Of a DNA stretch of 64,000 nt, positions 11,121 through 21,405 are shown piece after piece. The notes below the pieces were generated by a model. It searched no databases, was not told the origin of the DNA, and saw only the letters and a program-made list of their open reading frames with translations. A program made the translations under genes and the position numbers. Source of the stretch: Eubacteriales Family XIII. Incertae Sedis bacterium (lineage in GTDB: Bacteria > Bacillota > Clostridia > Peptostreptococcales > Anaerovoracaceae); NCBI GenBank assembly GCA_031261345.1, contig JAISKC010000055.1, positions 1-64,000 on the forward strand. Reading direction: 5' to 3'. The first letter of the stretch is position 1. The number at the start of each line of letters is the position of its first letter.

Positions 11121-12254
11121 CTACCCCCTCACAAGCAGCCCAAGCGATTCAAGCACATAATTAAAATATGTGACCTTGTCGTATTGAATCCTTGTCTCCA
11201 CTGCCATACCATTCGAAATATTCACTTTATGCCCATCCTTGCTGACAAGATAATCAGAATCAGGTTCAATGATGGCCTTGAAATAAGGCTGTGCATTATC
11301 CGCTGTCTCACCGCCCTGTGGCATAGTGATATCGCTATCAATCTTCACGACTTTACCTCCTATTGTTCCGTAGATATTTTGTGCCAGCCCTGCCACAGCG
11401 ATATCGACGGTATCGCCTTTCTCGATCCTAGAAGCATCGGCTGCCAAGACATAAGCTTCCACTTTATATTTATCATTTTCCGAGCCAATACTCGCAATAG
11501 GCGAGGCCGTTTGCACGACCATACCAACCTTGTAATCACTAAGCATATGAACAACACCGGACTCATTCGCCAAAATAGCATAGTCGGCCTGTCCCGACTC
11601 TACCGCAGAGAGCTGTGCATCGATAGCACCGATTTGAGACTGAGCCTGAAGAATCTGCTCCTCGGCTGTGCGAATAGTGGAATAGTAAAGCTCGGAAATC
11701 TTGCCTTGATTCTTCGCGATTTCGACATCAATTTGCTCGTCCGTATAGCCATAAGACTTCATGCTGGCAATATCCGGCTTCTGCTGAGCTGTCTGGCTCT
11801 TGTAAAGTTCAAACTGCGAGTAATATAGGTTGTCATCAGCATCAGATGGACTAAACAAGTTCCTGTCCTCCTGCACAGACTGCACAAGTTTGTTGTATTG
11901 CTCAACCTGCTGCTCATAAATATGCCGTTGCTCAGAAAGCTGCTTATCCTGCAAATCTAACTCTGAACTCTTGACGGTAAAAAGCACCTCGCCTTTCTCC
12001 ACAATATCCCCCTCGGAAATATCCACTGAAACAAGCTCACCTGTATAAGGCGACATCACATAGTTCTTGTTGACGCTCTGCACATTTCCCGAAGACTTGA
12101 TGATATACATCTTTGGTATATGTATACTCCAAACAATCACCCCTGCAATAAGCACCAAAATCACAAGCAAGATGATATAGCCGAAGACCGGCAAAGTCTT
12201 CTCATATAGCAAAACGCTATCCTTCAAATTATCTAAAGTCTTAATTCTTTTCAT
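11121..12254 (-). CDS. HlyD-family membrane fusion protein (bacteriocin export accessory)
   Basis: 377 residues from the ATG at 12254, chosen because AAAGGTGA lies just before it; a longer reading from 12317 overlaps the upstream gene. One N-terminal transmembrane segment (YIILLVILVLIAGVIVWSI) is followed by a lipoyl-like barrel (MSPYTGELVSVDISEGDIVE), a coiled-coil hairpin (LQDKQLSEQRHIYEQQVEQY...) and the returning lipoyl half (DYAILANESGVVHMLSDY). Members link an ABC exporter to the cell exterior, as in lactococcin and mesentericin export. Its partner is the C39-type transporter at 16420-18651 in the same cluster. Confidence 0.9.
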   Translation of the reverse strand: MKRIKTLDNLKDSVLLYEKTLPVFGYIILLVILVLIAGVIVWSIHIPKMYIIKSSGNVQSVNKNYVMSPYTGELVSVDISEGDIVEKGEVLFTVKSSELDLQDKQLSEQRHIYEQQVEQYNKLVQSVQEDRNLFSPSDADDNLYYSQFELYKSQTAQQKPDIASMKSYGYTDEQIDVEIAKNQGKISELYYSTIRTAEEQILQAQSQIGAIDAQLSAVESGQADYAILANESGVVHMLSDYKVGMVVQTASPIASIGSENDKYKVEAYVLAADASRIEKGDTVDIAVAGLAQNIYGTIGGKVVKIDSDITMPQGGETADNAQPYFKAIIEPDSDYLVSKDGHKVNISNGMAVETRIQYDKVTYFNYVLESLGLLVRG

Positions 12255-12258
12255 GAAC

Positions 12259-12585
12259 TCACCTTTTCTTTCTCTTTTGCAAAGCTGACTCGTCAGTGAA
12301 TATAGTAAAAATACCAAATATCATGCCTGTGACTATACCCTGTTTTATTGATCCGGCTTGTATGTCAAAAAATAGTATTGGCACGAGAATGCATAAGAGT
12401 CCGATGATGGTAAACAATCTTGGATGCCTTTTCCTCTTTTCATAGCACCATGCTTGCAGTTTCTGAAATCCGAAAGTATATCCAACCAATGAATTGATAA
12501 CAGCACCAAATATGAAAACTGCAATCAACATAGCTACAGCAACAGCAAGTGCAAATATCACATATGGTTTCAAAGAATCAATCAT
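12259..12585 (-). CDS. Small membrane protein of the bacteriocin cluster, unknown
   Basis: 108 residues with three or four hydrophobic segments: one at 8-35, two at roughly 58-75 and 80-95, and a basic C-terminus KRKKR. I do not recognise a family. Its stop codon lies 4 bp before the HlyD start and its 3' end supplies part of that gene's ribosome binding site, so the two are tightly coupled. Size and position fit an immunity or export-helper protein, but this is inference only. Confidence 0.6.
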   Translation of the reverse strand: MIDSLKPYVIFALAVAVAMLIAVFIFGAVINSLVGYTFGFQKLQAWCYEKRKRHPRLFTIIGLLCILVPILFFDIQAGSIKQGIVTGMIFGIFTIFTDESALQKRKKR

Positions 12586-12609: not shown

Positions 12610-13095
12610 TCAACTCAACTTCGGAATAAATATATCCGCTGTCATCGTGCCATCTTCCTCATTTGAGTCTACAAATACTGTATATGTTTCGTTTGAAAGC
12701 GGTATTTCCTCCTCGTAGCCAACCAAATGCAATTTGTCATAAGCAAACTTCATATTCTCCTCCTCACCAACAAATCTTGTGTAAAGGCAGTCCGAGACAC
12801 GTAGAACACTTTCCATCATGTATGGCGAGTCCACATGATGAATGAATGCGTTAGCCTGTCTAATAAATGTGATAGTCATCTGCGGCCCACCATTATCATT
12901 CACTTTTACATCCGTCTTCTGTATCAAAGGTCCAACGGGTTGTGCCCCTTTTTGCTTGATGTGTAAGTCCATCCGCTCAATCAAAATCTGAAATTTTGTA
13001 AGCTGCTCAAAATCTTCCTCCTTCGAAAGTTCAAGCAACAAAGCGTTTTCCAGTTTTAATGTTTTAGAATGATGTACATTTATTGAATTGACCAT
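12610..13095 (-). CDS. GyrI-like effector-binding domain protein (tentative)
   Basis: 161 residues from the ATG at 13095; an ATG two codons upstream directly abuts GGAGG and is unlikely to be used. The middle and end resemble the GyrI/AraC effector-binding fold: a helix (FEQLTKFQILIERMDLHIKQ), KGAQPVGPLIQK, a strand region and the ending DGTMTADIFIPKL, close to the usual EVWIPV ending. No DNA-binding domain is fused. Such stand-alone domains can bind hydrophobic small molecules or protein partners. It lies in the bacteriocin operon between two membrane-protein genes, so a role in sensing or sequestration is possible but unproven. Confidence 0.5.
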   Translation of the reverse strand: MVNSINVHHSKTLKLENALLLELSKEEDFEQLTKFQILIERMDLHIKQKGAQPVGPLIQKTDVKVNDNGGPQMTITFIRQANAFIHHVDSPYMMESVLRVSDCLYTRFVGEEENMKFAYDKLHLVGYEEEIPLSNETYTVFVDSNEEDGTMTADIFIPKLS

Positions 13096-13142
13096 CTGCA
13101 TCCTCCTTTTCTGCTAATAAAATTGCAATACATATAACGTCA

Positions 13143-14255
13143 TTACACATCACAAATTTTCTTTATTTTATTTTCAATCGAAAAAACTAAATTTCTGTAA
13201 TTCTCAAAAATCATGTATGGCCAATCCCTCTTAAACAGTTTAATCTTGTGGCCAGATGCATCAATCGTCCCATATTTTTTCTTTGTTCCTATTAACCAAT
13301 ATAAATCAAAATTGTTCTGCATTTTAGTTGAAACAGAATTTTTCACATGTCCCATATTATGAAGAGCATAAGCCGCCATGTTGGTTTTCTTTATATCGCC
13401 TGTAATCATTCCATAATACATATACATTTTCACTAGCTCTATCTCATCTCTACCAAAGTAGAACCTATCAAGGGTGAAGGCCTTTACATATTCATGCTCT
13501 ATATATTTTTCTGTCTCAGGTGAAAGAATATCATTGTTCACACAAGTCATAGTGATAATATATTTCCAAGTCTGTAAAATAAGAAATTCAGAATGATTGG
13601 GTGGATTCTGTTCTTCCGTAAAGCATTTAAATCTTAGGACTTCATCTCTTGTAATGTTATCAAATAGAATTCTATAATTTGCATAGTAAAGAAATCCTTT
13701 TTCATTCTCCAAATTTTTGATTACGGTCAACTGTCCATGCATTGGTTGGTTTATTATTGAATAGATAAAGAAAACGCACATTCCAATTACAGAAGATGCC
13801 AATAAAATATAGAATTCATAATTATAGAAAGCAACGATAAAAATCGTAAACAATGCAATCTCCACAGTGAAAACCTCAATTTCAATTGACTTTACATCTT
13901 GAAAATGTGATTTACTTGTCGAATTTAATTCATATTTTGGAGGAAATATCAAAGATGCTACTAAAAAAGGATCTAGCATAATTTTGGACTTGTTTTTCCC
14001 ATCACAGAAAAAGATTATTGGATATAGGATTATTGGCATTGCATCATAGCCACTCAGCTTCCATTCAAAATGCTTCAAAATGCTTCCGAATGAACTCACA
14101 AACCAGAAAATCGGAATGAAAAATATGAATGATTGAATGATAATTGCCATTTGTTTTAACAAAGGTGTCCCGAGTGAAATATTCACCAATGAAAATATAG
14201 TACCTGCTATCACACCAATCAGTATGCATAATGGAGTAATACTACTTGTTTTCAT
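13143..14255 (-). CDS. Unknown multi-span membrane protein
   Basis: 370 residues from ATG 14255 (ribosome binding site GAAGG); a GTG five codons earlier is less likely. Hydrophobic segments lie near residues 5-25, 33-55, 75-90, 130-150 and 155-175, followed by a ~190-residue soluble C-terminal region rich in Tyr and Lys with no motif I recognise. The start overlaps a 21-codon ORF (14242-14307) in another frame, which suggests translational coupling. It is the first large gene after the second promoter of the bacteriocin cluster. GC is lower than in the housekeeping genes, consistent with acquisition. Immunity or peptide processing are possible roles; neither is shown. Confidence 0.6.
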   Translation of the reverse strand: MKTSSITPLCILIGVIAGTIFSLVNISLGTPLLKQMAIIIQSFIFFIPIFWFVSSFGSILKHFEWKLSGYDAMPIILYPIIFFCDGKNKSKIMLDPFLVASLIFPPKYELNSTSKSHFQDVKSIEIEVFTVEIALFTIFIVAFYNYEFYILLASSVIGMCVFFIYSIINQPMHGQLTVIKNLENEKGFLYYANYRILFDNITRDEVLRFKCFTEEQNPPNHSEFLILQTWKYIITMTCVNNDILSPETEKYIEHEYVKAFTLDRFYFGRDEIELVKMYMYYGMITGDIKKTNMAAYALHNMGHVKNSVSTKMQNNFDLYWLIGTKKKYGTIDASGHKIKLFKRDWPYMIFENYRNLVFSIENKIKKICDV

Positions 14256-14307
14256 AACTAGAACCTTCACAGAGAGAGCACATATTTTCCTCGATTATTT
14301 CACTCAT
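14242..14307 (-). CDS. 21-residue peptide ORF in a bacteriocin-cluster leader
   Basis: A short ORF with an excellent ribosome binding site (AAAGGAGAGCAAAG before ATG). The peptide begins MSEIIEENMCSLCEG and ends SSYENK; it is acidic and has a CxxC pair. It overlaps the start of the following membrane-protein gene by 14 nt. It could be a leader peptide for coupling, a pheromone precursor or a small bacteriocin-like peptide. The conserved leader in front of it is a duplicate of the one at 16211-16286. Confidence 0.4.
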   Translation of the reverse strand: MSEIIEENMCSLCEGSSYENK

Positions 14308-14349
14308 CTTTGCTCTCCTTTCTCCAAGCGACCAAGCTATAACGGATTA

Positions 14350-14378
14350 TTGATATGCGTTTGCAACCGCATTGTCAA
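14350..14378 (-). promoter_or_regulatory. Promoter with palindromic site in its spacer
   Basis: TTGACA (14373-14378) and TATCAA (14350-14355) are 17 bp apart on the minus strand. The spacer is filled by ATGCGGTTGCAAACGCAT, a near-perfect palindrome centred on TTGCAA. The same promoter and site occur at 16256-16284, and the site alone at 16073-16090. It should drive the 14.3-9.3-kb operon. Regulator unknown; the Spo0A-like protein of the cluster is a candidate. Confidence 0.65.
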
Positions 14379-14518
14379 ACAATTGTGAAACACGAATATC
14401 GGATTGCTTCGCTCTCAATAATATTAGTTTACAGCCCGAGACAAAGTGCTATTGCTGCTTTTATGCCTCTGACATCAATACACCTTTTAGTTTCGATGTT
14501 TTGAATGATGTATTACGA

Positions 14519-14686
14519 TTATCCTTGTGTATCATCCTTTTTTGTAATTGCAAAAGGAACAATAATTGAAACAAATATCCCTAAGATAAACATACTATGA
14601 TCATCATTAACAAATAAACAGTTCAATATTGTTACCGTAACCAAAACGGAAAATACCGGAATTCGAATAAACCATTTCTTCTTCAT
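14519..14686 (-). CDS. 55-residue membrane peptide, unknown
   Basis: A short frame behind a perfect GAGGAGG at 5 nt spacing before ATG 14686. The product starts MKKKWFIRIPVFSVLV and has two hydrophobic segments separated by NDDHS, ending KKDDTQG. The positive-inside pattern fits a two-helix membrane protein. It belongs to a string of small membrane proteins downstream of the bacteriocin precursor, the typical place and size for immunity proteins. No family is recognised. Confidence 0.5.
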   Translation of the reverse strand: MKKKWFIRIPVFSVLVTVTILNCLFVNDDHSMFILGIFVSIIVPFAITKKDDTQG

Positions 14687-14796
14687 TTGTTCCTCCTCGT
14701 ATTCACAATTTATTATTTAGTACATTTCCTCTATTCGGGATGGAATTTAAGCACTCCATCTCGTTTGAATTTAATGATCGCAAGAGTTCGCAATTA

Positions 14797-15027
14797 CTAT
14801 CTGTCATCACCTTTCTGTGACTTGTGGCAATATATGTAATAGGCCCAAGTTATGGTTGAAAGAATAGTCGTAACTATGCTAACAAGAAAGACTGACAATA
14901 AACGACTATGATCCCCCGTGGCAATATCAATAATATGCCATCCAACAGGACCAAGTGTGACCAACGACATTGCAATCGGAGTGAAGATAGTGAAATCTTT
15001 TTCATGATTTGGCATTCTCTTTTTCAT
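14797..15027 (-). CDS. Small two-helix membrane protein, unknown
   Basis: 76 residues from the ATG at 15027, which overlaps the stop codon of the preceding ORF as ATGA. The basic start MKKRMPNHEKD is followed by helices FTIFTPIAMSLVTLGPVGWH and LLSVFLVSIVTTILSTITWAY, and the end is charged (CHKSQKGDDR). It is likely co-translated with the 15024-15215 ORF. Position downstream of a double-glycine precursor suggests immunity or self-protection; nothing in the sequence proves this. Confidence 0.5.
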   Translation of the reverse strand: MKKRMPNHEKDFTIFTPIAMSLVTLGPVGWHIIDIATGDHSRLLSVFLVSIVTTILSTITWAYYIYCHKSQKGDDR

Positions 15028-15215
15028 GCTACGATTACCCAAAAGAACAACACACTGACAAAATCAGAAACGGGTTGTTGCATTAGTATGCATGTTAATA
15101 TTAGTAGCATCATTAAAATTTCGATTGACATTCCTGCCAACATTATCTTTTTCATTTGTTCCAACCCCAACAAATTATTTGATGTTATATATTCTATTTG
15201 TCTCAGAATCAACAT
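15024..15215 (-). CDS. Small hydrophobic protein, unknown
   Basis: 63 residues if it starts at ATG 15215, 2 nt after the previous stop; 43 residues if it starts at the internal ATG 15155 (MKKIMLAGMSIEILMMLLIL), which has GTTGGAA before it. The second form is a single or double membrane helix with a lysine pair at its start. It ends in an ATGA overlap with the next ORF. Part of the small-membrane-protein run of the bacteriocin cluster; function unknown. Confidence 0.45.
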   Translation of the reverse strand: MLILRQIEYITSNNLLGLEQMKKIMLAGMSIEILMMLLILTCILMQQPVSDFVSVLFFWVIVA

Positions 15216-15217
15216 TC

Positions 15218-15526
15218 TTATAATATTAACGAACTGCCATCAAAGAGATCAATGATAAATAAAATCGAAAGAATCGTGATAACAATAGCCTTCAATGCAA
15301 ATTGAGTCCTAAGTGGTACAACTGCACTTGGCAAATTGCACATAGAACATATTGACATCAAAATTATGAATATACTGCATCGAGTGACAATGCTAGCTAT
15401 ATTGGTCGAAAATTTGCCAGTTCCAAGTATAAGAATTACTATAGCAATAATACACATGGCAATTATTAAAAGATTAAGCATTCTCTTCCTTGCAAACTTT
15501 ACAATTTTCGTTCGATACTTATCCAT
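15218..15526 (-). CDS. Three-helix membrane protein, unknown
   Basis: 102 residues from ATG 15526, chosen because GGAGAG stands 6 nt before it; a TTG four codons upstream overlaps that site. A basic N-terminus (MDKYRTKIVKFARKRML) leads into three hydrophobic segments (LLIIAMCIIAIVILILG, CSIFIILMSICSMC, AIVITILSILFIIDLF). It is the first gene after the double-glycine precursor and fits an immunity protein by size, basic charge and position. No family is recognised. Confidence 0.5.
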   Translation of the reverse strand: MDKYRTKIVKFARKRMLNLLIIAMCIIAIVILILGTGKFSTNIASIVTRCSIFIILMSICSMCNLPSAVVPLRTQFALKAIVITILSILFIIDLFDGSSLIL

Positions 15527-15652
15527 TTTACTCTCCAATTTCCTTATGTATTCCCAAGTGCATTTGTAGCTATAACAAATACACTTGGGTTACTCACGTC
15601 AAACAATTAGACAATGTTTTTCGCTGTAGCTGTCATAAACAATAACGATTGA

Positions 15653-16039
15653 TTAATAATTATCCCAAACATCCCACAAGGCCATGGCTAGTCCATTACG
15701 TTGTCCCATTGTAACACCACTATTATTTCCATTCATCTTGATTAATGTGCTAATTACAGCACTACTCGCTGCGCCATGAAGTACAGACAAACCCAAACCG
15801 ACATAGGGAACCAACCCAATCAAAAAGTTTTTTACAAGAGTCGATAAAGACGATTGTTTTTGGGACAACCCAATGATAAGTTTGGCAATCTCATTACCAG
15901 TATACTTTACTTTCTTGTAAGTTCCATACCATTGACTGCTAGTGCTCAATACAGTTGCTCCGCCCTCGGTATAAGTCATCTCATCTTCTGTCATAGCCAC
16001 GCAATTGCGAGGCATTACTAATGTTCCATTATATTCCAT
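15653..16039 (-). CDS. Double-glycine bacteriocin-type precursor peptide
   Basis: 128 residues from ATG 16039 (GAAAGGAG 8 nt upstream); the longer reading from 16084 lacks such a site. Residues 1-27 form a leader ending MTEDEMTYTEGG, the pattern cut by C39 peptidases after Gly-Gly. The ~101-residue core begins ATVLSTSSQWYG, has a glycine-rich hydrophobic stretch (FLIGLVPYVGLGLSVLHG) and ends WDVWDNY; it contains no cysteine. A large unmodified class II-type bacteriocin is the best guess, since no modification enzyme is encoded nearby and the matching C39 exporter lies directly upstream. A secreted signal or helper protein is the alternative. Confidence 0.75.
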   Translation of the reverse strand: MEYNGTLVMPRNCVAMTEDEMTYTEGGATVLSTSSQWYGTYKKVKYTGNEIAKLIIGLSQKQSSLSTLVKNFLIGLVPYVGLGLSVLHGAASSAVISTLIKMNGNNSGVTMGQRNGLAMALWDVWDNY

Positions 16040-16072
16040 GATGATTCTCCTTTCGTTGAATATCAATATTCT

Positions 16073-16090
16073 AAGCGTTTGCAACCACTC
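16073..16090 (-). promoter_or_regulatory. Third TTGCAA-centred site, before the precursor gene
   Basis: GAGTGGTTGCAAACGCTT repeats the 12-bp core TGGTTGCAAACG found in the spacers of the promoters at 14350-14378 and 16256-16284. A TAGAAT hexamer follows, but no good -35 box is present, so an activator may be needed here. Confidence 0.5.
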
Positions 16091-16163
16091 GTTTTATCTG
16101 TAATAATAATACTGTTGTCTCGGCGTATTGTTTGATGCACTATCGCCGACTCAACCGCTGATT

Positions 16164-16213
16164 GCGTCCGTGTGGTGTTCTCACCTTGCGGACGCTTTTA
16201 TTGTTTTCGCCAT
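16164..16213 (-). other. Ten-codon leader ORF overlapping a hairpin
   Basis: ATG at 16213 follows AAAGGAGAGCAAAG and encodes MAKTIKASAR before a TGA at 16181. The end of the ORF forms the left arm of a hairpin (GCGTCCG/CGGACGC, with GGTG/CACC inside). Because its leader duplicates the one at 14305-14380, this may be either a decayed gene start or an attenuator-type leader upstream of the precursor gene. Confidence 0.35.
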
Positions 16214-16255
16214 CTTTGCTCTCCTTTCTCCAAGCGACCAAGCAATAACTTATTA

Positions 16256-16284
16256 TTGATATGCGTTTGCAACCACATTGTCAA
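16256..16284 (-). promoter_or_regulatory. Promoter of the bacteriocin precursor unit
   Basis: TTGACA (16279-16284) and TATCAA (16256-16261) with a 17-bp spacer containing ATGTGGTTGCAAACGCAT. Sequence from here through the ribosome binding site is nearly identical to 14305-14378, so one region was copied from the other. The rest of the 16040-16419 gap holds the leader ORF and a third copy of the site. Confidence 0.65.
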
Positions 16285-16419
16285 ACTTTTTCAATCACGA
16301 GCACTGGATTGCTTCGCGCCTGTGCCTTTAGGGTATCGCTCGCAACGGCACCACTTTAACGTCCGAGCCGAAGTGCTATTGCCGCTTTTATGCCTTCACT
16401 CAATCCAACTCCAAGGCTT

Positions 16420-18651
16420 TTAAGTATAATGCATATCCTCGTCTTCAGCGGGATTTTCATCTTGAGATCTTTGTCCATTTTCTTCCTCCTCTATCACAAA
16501 ATTGCCTTGCTGCATTTCCCACAGCTTGTAGTACATACCCTCGTTTGCGAGCAGCTTTTCGTGACTGCCCTGCTCTACCACTTCGCCCTTGTCGAGTACA
16601 ATGATTTCGTCGCAGTTTTTGATTGTGCTCAACCTGTGGGCTATGATGAGCATCGTCTTCTTTCTGAACTTGTTGTATATCATGTCGAAGATGATATTTT
16701 CTGTGCCGAAGTCGAGGTTGCTTGTACTCTCGTCCAAGATGTAGAAGTCGTTTGCCTTGAGAAAAGCCCTTGCCAATGCTATTCTTTGACGTTCACCTCC
16801 GCTGAGTCCTTTCCCCGATTCCTCAAGGAATGTGTGATACTGCATAGGAAGTCTTCGTATGAAGTCATGGGCGTCCGCCGCCTTTGCAGCCTCCTTCACC
16901 TCATCGAGCGTCGAGTTCATCTTCGTTACACGGATATTGTCAAATATACTCTTTGAAAACAGCTCGATACTTTGCGGTACATATGATATGCCACGCCGCA
17001 GCGACTCATTGCTATATTCTTCTATGTCGGTTCCACCTGTCAGTATTTCACCTTCTTCCGGCTCGTAGTATTTGAGTAATAGTTTAGCAATCGTAGACTT
17101 TCCGCTACCACTTGCTCCGACCAATGCGACCTTCTTTCCCTGTGGTATTGAAAACGATACATTATTGAGTGCAGGTTTTCTGTTTCCGTATCTGAATGTT
17201 ACATCCTTGAACACAACATCGCCTTGCAATCCCTCAAACTCCTGATACTCCGTTTCGTCCTCTTGTTCTTTCTCATAGTCAAGTATCTCAGCCACGCGCT
17301 TCATGGATATCTGCGCTTCCTGTATTTGAAGTTGCAAGCCGACAAGCCGCTGCACAGGATCCATAAAGTAGCCGGCGAGCGTCATAAAGGCCATGAGTGT
17401 TCCGAGGGTGATATCATTACCTATTACTTGAAGCACGCCAAAGTACATCAGCACTAGATTTCCAATTGTACCGACACCGCCAGAGATTGCACCTTGCACA
17501 TTTGAAAGCATCCCCTCGCGAAAAGCTATACGCAATGAGCGGATATATTCTCGCTCTATATTTTCGAGCTCAACTTCCTCATTGGCATTACCCTTGATGG
17601 TTTCTACGCCATTCAAGCCCTCAATGATTTCGGAATTGAGGATAGAGGCTTGTTGCATCTGTTCAATGTTCAACTTCTTGTATGGTTGTTTGAAACAAAA
17701 GACGAGGATGATATTTATCACAGTGAGCAGTGCAATAATACCAAACAACTGCATATCCATCTTGAACAGGATAACAGCAGTAATGAGTGCCATGGACACA
17801 TCCATAATGAGGGTGAGTGCGATATTTGTGAAAATATCCTTTATGGTAAATGCGTCTGAAAACCTAGTGACGATATCTCCAGTTCTGCGCGTTGCAAAAA
17901 ACCGCATTGGCAGACTGTAAATATGTTTGAAATACCCGAGCATGAGCGGTATATCTATTCGTTGCGACAAAAATAGCATTATCCAACTGCGTACAAAATC
18001 TATGACAATCTGTGTGAGAGCAATAGCCGCAAAGATGATGAGAACGGCAACCAAAAGCCCCTTGAGCTTGTAAGGCAGTATCTCGTCCATGATGATTTTG
18101 TTGAACAGTGATGAAACAATGCCTAGTGCAGTCATCAGTAGCGATGCTATGATAGCAAAGGCAAACAACTTCTTCTGGGGCAATAGCAGTTTCAGGAAAC
18201 GGTCGAAAACTTTCTCACCCTTGACCTTGCCCTTTTCAAATCTGTTGTCAGGCTTGAGTATGAGCAGGTTGCCAGTGAAAGTCTTGTAGAATTCGTCTAT
18301 AGTGACCCGCTCCAAATCCTTGGCAGGGTCTCCGATGATCAAATGCGTCTTGCCAATTTTGAAAACGACTACAAAATGGCTCAGACCTTCTTTGGTGATA
18401 ATGTTGGCTATACATGGGCGAGTGTATTCACTCAGAAATCCTTCACGGTCTACTTTGACAGCCTGCGAGACAAATCCCAGCTCATCTGCACACTTTGAGA
18501 GACCAATGAGATTTGTACCCTTGATGTCCGTCCCCATCATGTCGCGAAGTTTCGTGATGGTCGTTTCCTTCTTGTAGTGAAGGCAGACCATAGCAAGACA
18601 CGCCGCAGCGCAGTCCGTGATGTCGTGTTGTTTTACAAAAGTGTAGCGCAT
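16420..18651 (-). CDS. Peptidase-containing ABC transporter (C39, bacteriocin exporter)
   Basis: 743 residues from ATG 18651, where the family N-terminus MRYTFVKQHDITDCAAACL begins and GGAG stands 10 nt upstream; an ATG at 18702 has no ribosome binding site. The C39 peptidase has Cys in ITDCAAACL, His in LSHFVVV and Asp in LIIGDPA. Six membrane helices follow (about 165-430), then the ATPase with Walker A GASGSGKST, signature LSGGERQRIALARAF and Walker B FYILDEST. It should cut the leader after Gly-Gly and export the peptide, with the HlyD protein as accessory. The acidic tail (QDENPAEDEDMHYT) is unusual. It precedes the precursor gene on the same strand. Confidence 0.93.
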   Translation of the reverse strand: MRYTFVKQHDITDCAAACLAMVCLHYKKETTITKLRDMMGTDIKGTNLIGLSKCADELGFVSQAVKVDREGFLSEYTRPCIANIITKEGLSHFVVVFKIGKTHLIIGDPAKDLERVTIDEFYKTFTGNLLILKPDNRFEKGKVKGEKVFDRFLKLLLPQKKLFAFAIIASLLMTALGIVSSLFNKIIMDEILPYKLKGLLVAVLIIFAAIALTQIVIDFVRSWIMLFLSQRIDIPLMLGYFKHIYSLPMRFFATRRTGDIVTRFSDAFTIKDIFTNIALTLIMDVSMALITAVILFKMDMQLFGIIALLTVINIILVFCFKQPYKKLNIEQMQQASILNSEIIEGLNGVETIKGNANEEVELENIEREYIRSLRIAFREGMLSNVQGAISGGVGTIGNLVLMYFGVLQVIGNDITLGTLMAFMTLAGYFMDPVQRLVGLQLQIQEAQISMKRVAEILDYEKEQEDETEYQEFEGLQGDVVFKDVTFRYGNRKPALNNVSFSIPQGKKVALVGASGSGKSTIAKLLLKYYEPEEGEILTGGTDIEEYSNESLRRGISYVPQSIELFSKSIFDNIRVTKMNSTLDEVKEAAKAADAHDFIRRLPMQYHTFLEESGKGLSGGERQRIALARAFLKANDFYILDESTSNLDFGTENIIFDMIYNKFRKKTMLIIAHRLSTIKNCDEIIVLDKGEVVEQGSHEKLLANEGMYYKLWEMQQGNFVIEEEENGQRSQDENPAEDEDMHYT

Positions 18652-18742
18652 TCTTTCAATGCTCCATGCCACGGATAACAAGTTAATATCACTCATTATC
18701 ATTTTTGTTCATTCAAGTAACTATATATACTCAATTATATGC

Positions 18743-18785: not shown

Positions 18786-18804
18786 TATTGCTTTTTGTTG
18801 GTTT
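18786..18804. promoter_or_regulatory. 19-bp box shared by two intergenic regions (copy 1)
   Basis: TATTGCTTTTTGTTGGTTT occurs here, between the divergent exporter and Spo0A-like genes, and again at 19847-19865 before the kinase. An exact 19-bp repeat in two control regions of one cluster is likely to be a regulator binding site. Confidence 0.6.
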
Positions 18805-18873
18805 TTGTCCCAAAATGTAATCACAGTAAAAAATTCAATAGGTAGCCACTGATTAGTTCATTGGAGAATTGGT

Positions 18874-19674
18874 ATGAATGAAAATGATGATAGGGAACTG
18901 AAAGTCTTGCTAGTTGAGGACGACCCGACTGATTGCACAGCATTTTCCACATATGTCGATTTAGTGGAAGATGTTTATCTAATTGGAATCACGAACAATA
19001 CCGCGAGGGCTCTGGAATATGCGCAGGATTCCCTGCCTGATGCAATCATACTTGACTTGGAACTGCATCTGGGCGGAGGGAGCGGATTAACGTTCTTAAA
19101 AGATTTACATGAATTGAACCTCGCGGTCTTTCCATATGTTTTGATAACCACCAACAACACGAGTCAAATCACATATGACTTGGCTAGGCAGTTGGGTGCA
19201 GACTATATCATGTCGAAACATCAGGAAGGATACTCAGCTGAGTCTGTAATTGAATTTTTACGTTCAATTAAATCTGGGCTTCACGGCAAATTACGTCAAG
19301 CCGGTATTGCCAATGAGCTGTTGACCAATGAATCGGTAGAGGAATTATCACGCAGAATCCGAAAGAGGATCAATGCCGAACTCGATTTGATAGGAATTAG
19401 CCCGAAATTGGTTGGCAGGGAGTATTTAATCGACGCCATTCAAATTACTATAAATCAACCTGAGCACTATGTATGTAATATTATAGCCCAAAGACACAGG
19501 AAGTCGGAGAGTACTGTCGAACGTAGTATGCAACATGCCATCAACTCTACATGGAATAAGGCGGATATTGATATTCTGAAAAAACATTACACTGCTGCAA
19601 TCCACCACAAGAAAGGTACACCAACAATCACCGAATTCATCTACTACTATGCACGCAAGATAAAAGATGGGTGA
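18874..19674 (+). CDS. Spo0A-like response regulator
   Basis: 266 residues. An N-terminal receiver domain has the acidic pair in VEDDPTD, the phospho-acceptor in IILDLELHLGGGSG and TTN for the threonine switch. The C-terminal ~110 residues align with the Spo0A DNA-binding domain: LIGISPKLVGREYLIDAI, IAQRHRKSESTVERSMQHAI, NSTWNKADI and KGTPTITEFIYYYARKI mirror the Spo0A order of helices. It is not the chromosomal spo0A, since the receiver is divergent and it lies in a bacteriocin cluster. With the GHKL kinase 240 bp downstream it probably forms the cluster's two-component system, divergent from the exporter. GGAGAATTGGT precedes the ATG. Confidence 0.85.
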   Translation: MNENDDRELKVLLVEDDPTDCTAFSTYVDLVEDVYLIGITNNTARALEYAQDSLPDAIILDLELHLGGGSGLTFLKDLHELNLAVFPYVLITTNNTSQITYDLARQLGADYIMSKHQEGYSAESVIEFLRSIKSGLHGKLRQAGIANELLTNESVEELSRRIRKRINAELDLIGISPKLVGREYLIDAIQITINQPEHYVCNIIAQRHRKSESTVERSMQHAINSTWNKADIDILKKHYTAAIHHKKGTPTITEFIYYYARKIKDG

Positions 19675-19726: not shown

Positions 19727-19762
19727 CTAGTGCCCAAACCATCTGAGAAACCATACCAGCAT
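19727..19762 (-). CDS. 11-residue hydrophobic peptide ORF between regulator and kinase
   Basis: On the minus strand ATG 19762 stands 8 nt after a consensus AAAGGAGG and encodes MLVWFLRWFGH, then TAG. An ideal ribosome binding site in front of such a short frame, between a Spo0A-like regulator and its GHKL sensor kinase, suggests a real translated peptide: possibly a short hydrophobic pheromone, or a leader. A GTG three codons upstream would give a 14-residue form. The ORF track length limit hides it. Confidence is low because peptides this short occur by chance. Confidence 0.4.
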   Translation of the reverse strand: MLVWFLRWFGH

Positions 19763-19846: not shown

Positions 19847-19865
19847 TATTGCTTTTTGTTGGTTT
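19847..19865. promoter_or_regulatory. 19-bp box shared by two intergenic regions (copy 2)
   Basis: Exact copy of TATTGCTTTTTGTTGGTTT from 18786-18804, about 50 bp before the kinase start and upstream of the minus-strand 11-codon ORF. The gap 19675-19914 also holds a hairpin (CGCAACC/GGTTGCG) just after the regulator gene, which may end its transcript. Confidence 0.6.
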
Positions 19866-19914
19866 CCATTGGTTTATGCAAGTTATTTGTAAATTATGTT
19901 AGGATTTGCTCAAT

Positions 19915-21405
19915 ATGATTATTGCAATGGTTGTATGTATAAAATATTTCACTATAATTTTCTTCAGTATTTTTTTGTATGTGAAAATATTGAACTATGG
20001 AAAGGTAACTTTTATAAAAATTCTATGTTCGGTTATCTTTTCGATCGCGTTAGCTTTTCTGATGTTTATATTACGAGAATCACTTCCGATAGCAAGCATT
20101 GTAATAATGATTGCGCTATTGGGATTGTTTATGACGACATTGACAAAAACAAAATTAAATATCTCAATAACGGCTACAATTATCTCAACAGGAATGAGTT
20201 ATGCAATTCTCACTTTATCTGCAGTTATATCAATTTTCTTGTATGTTCATTTTTTGCAATCTATCATAAGTGAAAAATATGCTGAATTGTTTTTTTCCAT
20301 ATCAACTTTTTTCATTGAGGGATTGCTCGCAAATATACCATTCAGATTTAGTAGATTGAAACGAGGCTTCACTTTTCTGAATAAAAGAGGTGCAGGAAGC
20401 TTAGGCATATTTATTGGTACTATTTTATTGTGCTGTGCTATTATCCTAGGTCAACCTACGGGTGAAGAAAGTAGCTTAATAGTAATAATGTCTGCATTGG
20501 GAATCCTAATATGTTTGGTAGGCATTATATCTTTCTGGAGAAGCGGCATAAAAAAATCATACCTTGAATACTTACAAGCACAAGAGTTAGAGGAGCTTAG
20601 AGCCCAGATTGCTGAGAAAGAAGAGCAAATCGAAGAGCTCATGAAGCACAACGAGCAACTATCAAGCATTATTCACAGAGATAACAAACTCATCCCCGCG
20701 ATGGAGCTTGCAGTTAGAGAATGCATATCATCCTCCGAGCAAAATAGTGAGCAAGCTATAAAGCGAACGGCAATACTTGCACAGCTTGCAGATGAAACAG
20801 CCGAGCGTTCCGGCCTTATATCCACCTACCAAATCAATAATAAAAAATTGCCATCGACCAAGGTCTTCGAAATTGACAATCTACTGAGATACCTTCAGAA
20901 CAAAGCCGCCGAAGAACAAGTCATGTTTGATTTGATTATAGCCTGCGATGTGAAATACATGACCACCGAATTACTTGACCAATCCAAAATGCGAACTATT
21001 TTGGCAGACTTAATTGAAAATGCAATCATTGCAGTCAGAACGTGCAAGTATAAGAGTATTCTCGTATCCATAGTGTTAATTGAAGGGTTCTATACAATAA
21101 GTATTGAGGATAGTGGTGTTGATTTTCAGATAGAGACGCTATGCAATCTCGGGTTGGAAAAAGCCACAACTCATGCTGATGACGGGGGGAGTGGCATAGG
21201 ACTATTTTCGACATTTGAAATTATGAAGCTGCTAAACGCAAGCCTCATAATAAATGAAAATAAAAAAATCAAACATTCATTCACAAAGAAAATCACGATC
21301 AGATTTGACGGCAAAAGTGAGTATATTGTCAACACCAAAAGAGTAGCTGAAATCGCAAATGCAGCTCAGCGATCCGATATGATTCTGAACGATATTCTAC
21401 AGTAA
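19915..21405 (+). CDS. GHKL (AgrC-like) sensor histidine kinase
   Basis: 496 residues from ATG 19915 (a TTG three codons earlier is possible). Six or seven membrane helices fill residues ~1-210. A coiled coil (YLQAQELEELRAQIAEKEEQ) leads to the likely phospho-acceptor in IIHRDNKL. The C-terminal ATPase has LADLIENAIIAVR (N box), IEDSGVDFQ (G1) and DDGGSGIGLF (G2). This is the layout of peptide-sensing kinases of the AgrC type. Its partner is most likely the Spo0A-like regulator just upstream, an uncommon pairing since AgrC-type kinases usually work with LytTR regulators. Confidence 0.85.
   Translation: MIIAMVVCIKYFTIIFFSIFLYVKILNYGKVTFIKILCSVIFSIALAFLMFILRESLPIASIVIMIALLGLFMTTLTKTKLNISITATIISTGMSYAILTLSAVISIFLYVHFLQSIISEKYAELFFSISTFFIEGLLANIPFRFSRLKRGFTFLNKRGAGSLGIFIGTILLCCAIILGQPTGEESSLIVIMSALGILICLVGIISFWRSGIKKSYLEYLQAQELEELRAQIAEKEEQIEELMKHNEQLSSIIHRDNKLIPAMELAVRECISSSEQNSEQAIKRTAILAQLADETAERSGLISTYQINNKKLPSTKVFEIDNLLRYLQNKAAEEQVMFDLIIACDVKYMTTELLDQSKMRTILADLIENAIIAVRTCKYKSILVSIVLIEGFYTISIEDSGVDFQIETLCNLGLEKATTHADDGGSGIGLFSTFEIMKLLNASLIINENKKIKHSFTKKITIRFDGKSEYIVNTKRVAEIANAAQRSDMILNDILQ

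Follow-up and report, generated by a model that had tools for sequence, protein, structure and literature searches.

Organization of the Cluster

The window, a 64,000-nt stretch of contig JAISKC010000055.1, carries a bacteriocin-like cluster (table 1). In addition to the minus-strand genes listed, the cluster has minus-strand genes for small membrane proteins and a 375-aa membrane protein. Related clusters that encode an exporter, a precursor, p163, and an HlyD protein are present in other genera of the family. The precursor (15653–16039) has no match in Pfam or NCBIfam, and p163 has none in Pfam, NCBIfam, or PDB sequences that would speak for or against DNA binding. The HlyD-like protein scores below the cut-off for the TIGR01000 accessory protein (85.3 vs. 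258.85 bits). The Spo0A-like regulator mentioned in an earlier note on this DNA exists, has a Spo0A_C domain, and is the only dedicated DNA-binding protein recognized in the cluster. No AgrB was found among the Pfam-scanned cluster genes, and no candidate repressor was recognized among those scanned against Pfam and NCBIfam.

Table 1. Genes, promoter-like sequences, and candidate control elements of the cluster (positions in the window)
Feature	Position	Strand	Remarks
HlyD-like secretion accessory protein	11121..12317	-	HlyD_3 in Pfam
p163, conserved cluster protein	12610..13101	-	Homologs in L032, L033, L023, L034, and L035
Promoter/leader cassette, duplicate copy A	14294..14500	-
Promoter-like TTGACA-N17-TATCAA around copy 1 (putative promoter)	14350..14378	-	Toward 21-codon ORF and 375-aa membrane-protein gene
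Element copy 1	14355..14372	-	ATGCGGTTGCAAACGCAT (coding strand); inside promoter spacer
Double-glycine-type precursor peptide, bacteriocin-like	15653..16039	-	Leader matches L034 and L035 peptides
Element copy 3	16073..16090	-	GAGTGGTTGCAAACGCTT; directly upstream of TAGAAT (16068-16073), without -35; precedes bacteriocin-like precursor
Two-hairpin element	16105..16206	+	Plus strand ends in hairpin and U-rich tail
Promoter/leader cassette, duplicate copy B	16200..16420	-
Promoter-like TTGACA-N17-TATCAA around copy 2	16256..16284	-	Followed by short ORF MAKTIKASAR and stable hairpin
Element copy 2	16261..16278	-	ATGTGGTTGCAAACGCAT
Peptidase_C39 peptide cleavage/export ABC transporter	16420..18702	-	TIGR01193, 607 bits (cut-off 523.85)
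10-bp-phased repeat	18788..18807	+	TTGCTTTTTG TTGGTTTTTG; predicted regulator site, between regulator and ABC genes
Response regulator, Spo0A_C output domain	18874..19674	+	Below Spo0A ortholog cut-off
Short ORF MLVWFLRWFGH	19727..19762	-	Shine-Dalgarno-preceded; candidate signal peptide
10-bp-phased repeat, three units	19849..19878	+	Predicted regulator site, between peptide and kinase genes
GHKL-type membrane histidine kinase	19906..21405	+

Three Copies of a TTGCAA Element

The TTGCAA-centered palindrome that the earlier note placed at 14357–14370, 16073–16090, and 16263–16276 is present at all three locations. Its core is less uniform than had been described, as copy 1 reads CGGTTGCAAACG and exact matches to the 12-mer TGGTTGCAAACG are limited to two sites. 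Outer arms of ATGCG/CGCAT, attributed to one copy, are indeed found, in copy 1 only. Copies 1, 2, and 3 have 8, 7, and 6 of 9 positions paired, respectively; 18-mers with at least 8, 7, and 6 of 9 pairs make up 0.013%, 0.15%, and 1.0% of those in the window. The full palindrome holds in copy 1 only. The part that is constant across copies, GGTTGCAAACGC, is asymmetric: one arm is constant and the other varies, and the two half-sites of a symmetric dimer operator are not both kept.

Copies 2 and 3 have in common a 14-mer, GTGGTTGCAAACGC, with different flanks. When the 216-bp leader of copy 3 was shuffled with dinucleotides preserved, none of 4000 shuffles had its 14-mer (the closest were 8 with two mismatches), and its occurrence is not due to chance. 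Up to two mismatches from the 12-mer, the 64-kb window has 10 matches relative to a shuffle mean of 6.2, and 9 of 100 shuffles reach 10, which is no clear excess. The element therefore gains its significance from its placement and from the exact match over a longer stretch rather than from the count of 12-mers in the window.

In copies 1 and 2, the element occupies the 17-bp spacer of a TTGACA-TATCAA promoter, as had been claimed for two of the copies. Both thus agree with a spacer operator in a sigma-70 promoter, for which a site within a spacer of 16–18 bp is looked for, an arrangement that copy 3 lacks. The distance from copy 3 to its TAGAAT -10 is equal to that in copies 1 and 2, and the position of the -35 reads TAAAAC, which is no -35. 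Duplication of the regions around two copies, which had been put at roughly 75 bp, is real and larger (87 nt at 90% identity and a further 60 nt at 77% upstream), making a cassette of ∼200 bp with a 22-nt gap in one of its copies. Because copies 1 and 2 are inside the duplicated cassette, they are not independent and count as one event. Separately, REP-like intergenic repeats are found at L004:326-407 and L102:6926-7162 (GTCATTGCGAGCG...GGCAATCC and GCGAAGCAATCC), and a piece of GCGAAGCAATCC is present in both cassettes.

The Element Is Private to the Cluster

A motif search of the genome (2.42 Mb, 91 contigs, 94.6% complete), proposed in the earlier note, confines exact matches of the 17-mer GYGGTTGCAAACGCWTA to the three cluster sites, and there are no matches with one mismatch in the 2.42 Mb. 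With up to three mismatches, the genome has 25 matches versus 23 for a reversed-pattern control. Seven of eight inspected inexact sites fall within coding ORFs, and an exact 12-mer on another contig, C36, is within a coding region that is repeat-rich as judged by eye. The palindrome as the site of a genome-wide regulon was rejected on the basis of only three sites in the genome.

The search was extended to 349 genomes of the family, which include the genome itself and 348 of other genera. Only the two sites of the cluster match the promoter-embedded form exactly. The remaining 33 matches all have three mismatches, compared with 43 for the reversed control (hand count); these are chance-like, and no promoter-embedded copy was found in the 348 other genomes. 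Likewise, the element was not found in related clusters L032, L034, L035, and L041, where contig ends cut off part of the upstream sequence, and a search of the plasmid collection with the DNA at 14200–16420 gave no match. A single related form, TTGCATACGCATA, with 1 mismatch in 13, is found in another genus (G020), directly upstream of the p163 homolog at both paralogous loci. These loci are near-identical duplicates with like bases around TTGCATACGCATA and amount to one observation. In a post hoc comparison, none of 3000 shuffled versions of the 205-bp region contained this form, and shuffling the entire 20 kb gave a mean of 0.18 matches.

The suggestion that the element is common to cluster promoters as a control element is thus upheld by its three sites, equal distance to the -10, and restriction within the genome. 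We conclude that GGTTGCAAACGC[A/T], placed immediately 5' of the -10, is a genuine promoter element and that it is confined to the bacteriocin-like cluster.

The Spo0A-Like Regulator and Phased Repeats

Relative to the Spo0A model TIGR02875, the regulator scores 99.4 bits, below the ortholog cut-off of 200, and no second Spo0A_C protein was found in the genome (94.6% complete). Relatives of the regulator (46–52% identity) have upstream repeats that approximate TTGSTTTYYR with a period of 10 bp. The period is supported in a lag-10 test at p ≤0.014 in eight of nine relatives and in the window, with weaker values in L015 (0.014) and L019 (0.010). The exception, L021, gives p 0.766 (500 shuffles, 150 bp) and is matched by 408 of 1000 shuffles at 260 bp.

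A matrix of the unit was built from eight relatives, hand-aligned on TTG, with the window, L021, and G096 left out. Its top three tandem pairs in the 64-kb window start at 18788, 19849, and 19859. Near copies 1, 2, and 3 of the TTGCAA element, the highest-scoring tandems rank 258, 36, and 245 of 383,880; the rank for copy 2 is better than the roughly 800 expected, by our own arithmetic, for a region of that size. A 10-bp periodicity is absent at the palindrome promoters, where the observed value is equaled or exceeded in 467, 77, and 338 of 500 shuffles. Across eight genomes of relatives, 12 tandem sites have at most one mismatch, 10 of which are at regulator, kinase, or p163 loci (control, 1); three of the eight genomes have no such site. 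In G096 (locus L024), the recognition helix of the regulator has ITH where others have VER, and the upstream repeats have the unit GTGTACATTY, still with a 10-bp period; they give 25 of 30 matches, which none of 1000 shuffles attains. This joint change, a single case, is of the kind expected between a protein and the DNA site it binds. We take the Spo0A-like regulator to be the most likely reader of the phased repeats in the regulator/exporter and peptide/kinase intergenic regions.

In the genome, the phased repeat with at most one mismatch has 11 matches versus 6 for the control. A third copy, on contig C28 (L101:8584), has ∼40 bp in common with the copy upstream of the regulator gene. On contig C37 (L102:7226-7252), three phased units overlap the stretch immediately 5' of uvrB, between uvrA and uvrB (genes named by eye). 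The sites on C28 and C37 may be further targets of the regulator or chance occurrences.

Short ORFs of 11–15 aa, aromatic and hydrophobic and preceded by a Shine-Dalgarno sequence, lie between the regulator and kinase genes in 9 of 11 loci (the window, L015–L018, and L020–L023), giving the linkage of a short peptide gene to kinase and regulator that is looked for in a pheromone system. In the window, the ORF is on the strand opposite to the regulator and kinase. None was seen in L019, which has no kinase match, or in L024, where the kinase adjoins the regulator. We consider these ORFs to be candidates for a leaderless pheromone of the Spo0A_C/GHKL two-component system.

What May Read the Element

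Our preferred reading, which may well be correct though we stop short of calling it probable, is that the element is a cluster-private operator of a dedicated factor, probably other than the Spo0A-like regulator, which itself would act at the phased repeats. The dedicated factor would sit in the promoter spacer and block RNA polymerase, and three promoters, those of the bacteriocin-like precursor, the duplicated leader, and the 375-aa membrane-protein operon, would be switched together. The Spo0A-like regulator would act elsewhere, at two sets of TTGSTTTYYR repeats, one in the gap that separates its gene from the exporter gene and the other in the gap from the short peptide gene to the kinase gene. 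The two control elements are kept apart because of the matrix ranks, the lack of a 10-bp period at palindrome promoters, and the change of both helix and repeat in G096. Protein binding at either kind of site, the direction of control, and transcription starts are what we infer.

Properties of the element also point in other directions. An asymmetric invariant part and unconserved outer arms are odd for the operator of a symmetric dimer, and since copy 3 has no -35, repression there is less natural than activation; the two together make an activator or a promoter element possible. If the element were itself part of the promoter, contacted by RNA polymerase or an alternative sigma factor without a dedicated regulator, its constant spacing from the -10 across the three copies, its asymmetric core, and the missing -35 of copy 3 would be accounted for. 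But other promoters should then have it, and with no further exact or one-mismatch copy in the genome and only chance-like matches beyond the cluster among 349 genomes (its own included), we regard this as improbable. A rather unlikely, though weightier, alternative is that the element is a further type of site for the Spo0A-like regulator itself. A regulator with two kinds of site would make the reading in the earlier note right. It is the sole dedicated DNA-binding protein recognized in the cluster and the sole Spo0A_C protein found in the genome, GTTGCAAA resembles the last repeat units in the regulator promoters of relatives (GTTGAAAA / GTCGAAAA), some of these last units being TTGAAAA or TCGAAAA, and copy 2 has TTG at 0, 10, and 22 bp. 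Nevertheless, matrix and periodicity place the palindrome promoters near background, and Spo0A binds head-to-tail repeats, not palindromes. The conserved site that is linked to the regulator is the 10-bp-phased repeat, which was not seen at the three palindrome promoters, and comparison therefore does not support binding by the Spo0A-like protein.

Two further explanations concern individual copies. The TTGCAA of copy 3 could double as the -35 of a divergent plus-strand promoter (TTGCAA-17-AATAAT at 16079–16107, its -10 preceded by TG), which would make a two-hairpin RNA of ∼95 nt, such that the element serves both directions. The strong fold at 16105–16206, between copies 2 and 3, with a U-rich tail on the plus strand, is consistent with such an RNA (folding z of -5.96), but the fold is equally good on the minus strand (-6.47) and has no match in Rfam, and 349 family genomes yielded short weak matches and no convincing homolog. 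Moreover, the region has 31 promoter-like matches, barely above the 26.9 in shuffles, and a terminator scan did not list the hairpin of the two-hairpin element. We doubt strongly that copy 3 has this second role. It is less plausible still that the copies are functionless debris of duplication, with copies 1 and 2 from one event and copy 3 a remnant: the first two are within a duplicated cassette, yet the flanks of copy 3 are by eye unlike those of the cassettes and its motif is intact at an equal distance from the -10.

Relation to Known Systems

Spacer operators between the -35 and -10 are known, for example, for repressors of the BlaI/MecI or TetR type. As in those systems, an inverted-repeat-like site fills a 17-bp spacer at several promoters of one cluster. 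Unlike them, no linked repressor gene was recognized here, the core is asymmetric, and one of three promoters has no -35. The earlier note had allowed for either a repressor or a DNA-distorting activator on account of the placement in the spacer. A repressor is compatible with these findings; an activator that distorts DNA in the manner of MerR is disfavored because MerR-type sites have a spacer of 19–20 bp and the spacer here is a normal 17 bp. Matches to other known sites were also sought in the window. The CcpA cre consensus, TGNAANCGNTNNCA, has none. The 0A box of Spo0A, a TTTGTCRAAA-like site, has 14 matches with one mismatch compared with 16.6 by chance; at the three elements it is absent with up to one mismatch, which also counts against the regulator as their binder.

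The regulator resembles Spo0A, with its tandem head-to-tail 0A boxes, in having a Spo0A_C domain and predicted tandem sites with a spacing of about one helical turn. It differs in scoring below the ortholog cut-off, in a unit of TTGSTTTYYR rather than TTTGTCRAAA, and in having a neighboring GHKL kinase as partner. Similarly, a locus that combines a C39 exporter and a candidate peptide with a response regulator and a membrane GHKL kinase recalls the ComCDE/Blp and Agr pheromone control of class II bacteriocins. Here, however, the output domain is Spo0A_C rather than LytTR, the candidate signal is a leaderless 11–15-aa ORF on the opposite strand, and AgrB was not seen among the cluster genes scanned with Pfam.

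It is possible, and we propose it only tentatively, that a peptide signaling system runs the cluster, in which a leaderless aromatic peptide of 11–15 aa and a GHKL kinase would control a nonsporulation Spo0A_C regulator acting on phased repeats, with repeat and helix changing together and the TTGCAA element forming a second, cluster-private layer for the toxin-side promoters. In the open-licence literature, we found no description of a Spo0A_C regulator joined to peptide signaling or bacteriocins. According to a paper on the sporulation pathway, the Spo0A_C domain uniquely distinguishes Spo0A from other response regulators (PMC6136694). If our proposal is true, that view would meet a clear exception in a Spo0A_C regulator that is tied to a neighboring kinase, a candidate signal peptide, and a bacteriocin-like cluster, in a genome with no other Spo0A_C protein found, and the system would offer a simple site code. 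The TTGCAA element would, in turn, be a private switch of the toxin-side genes, apart from the promoters for signaling and export.
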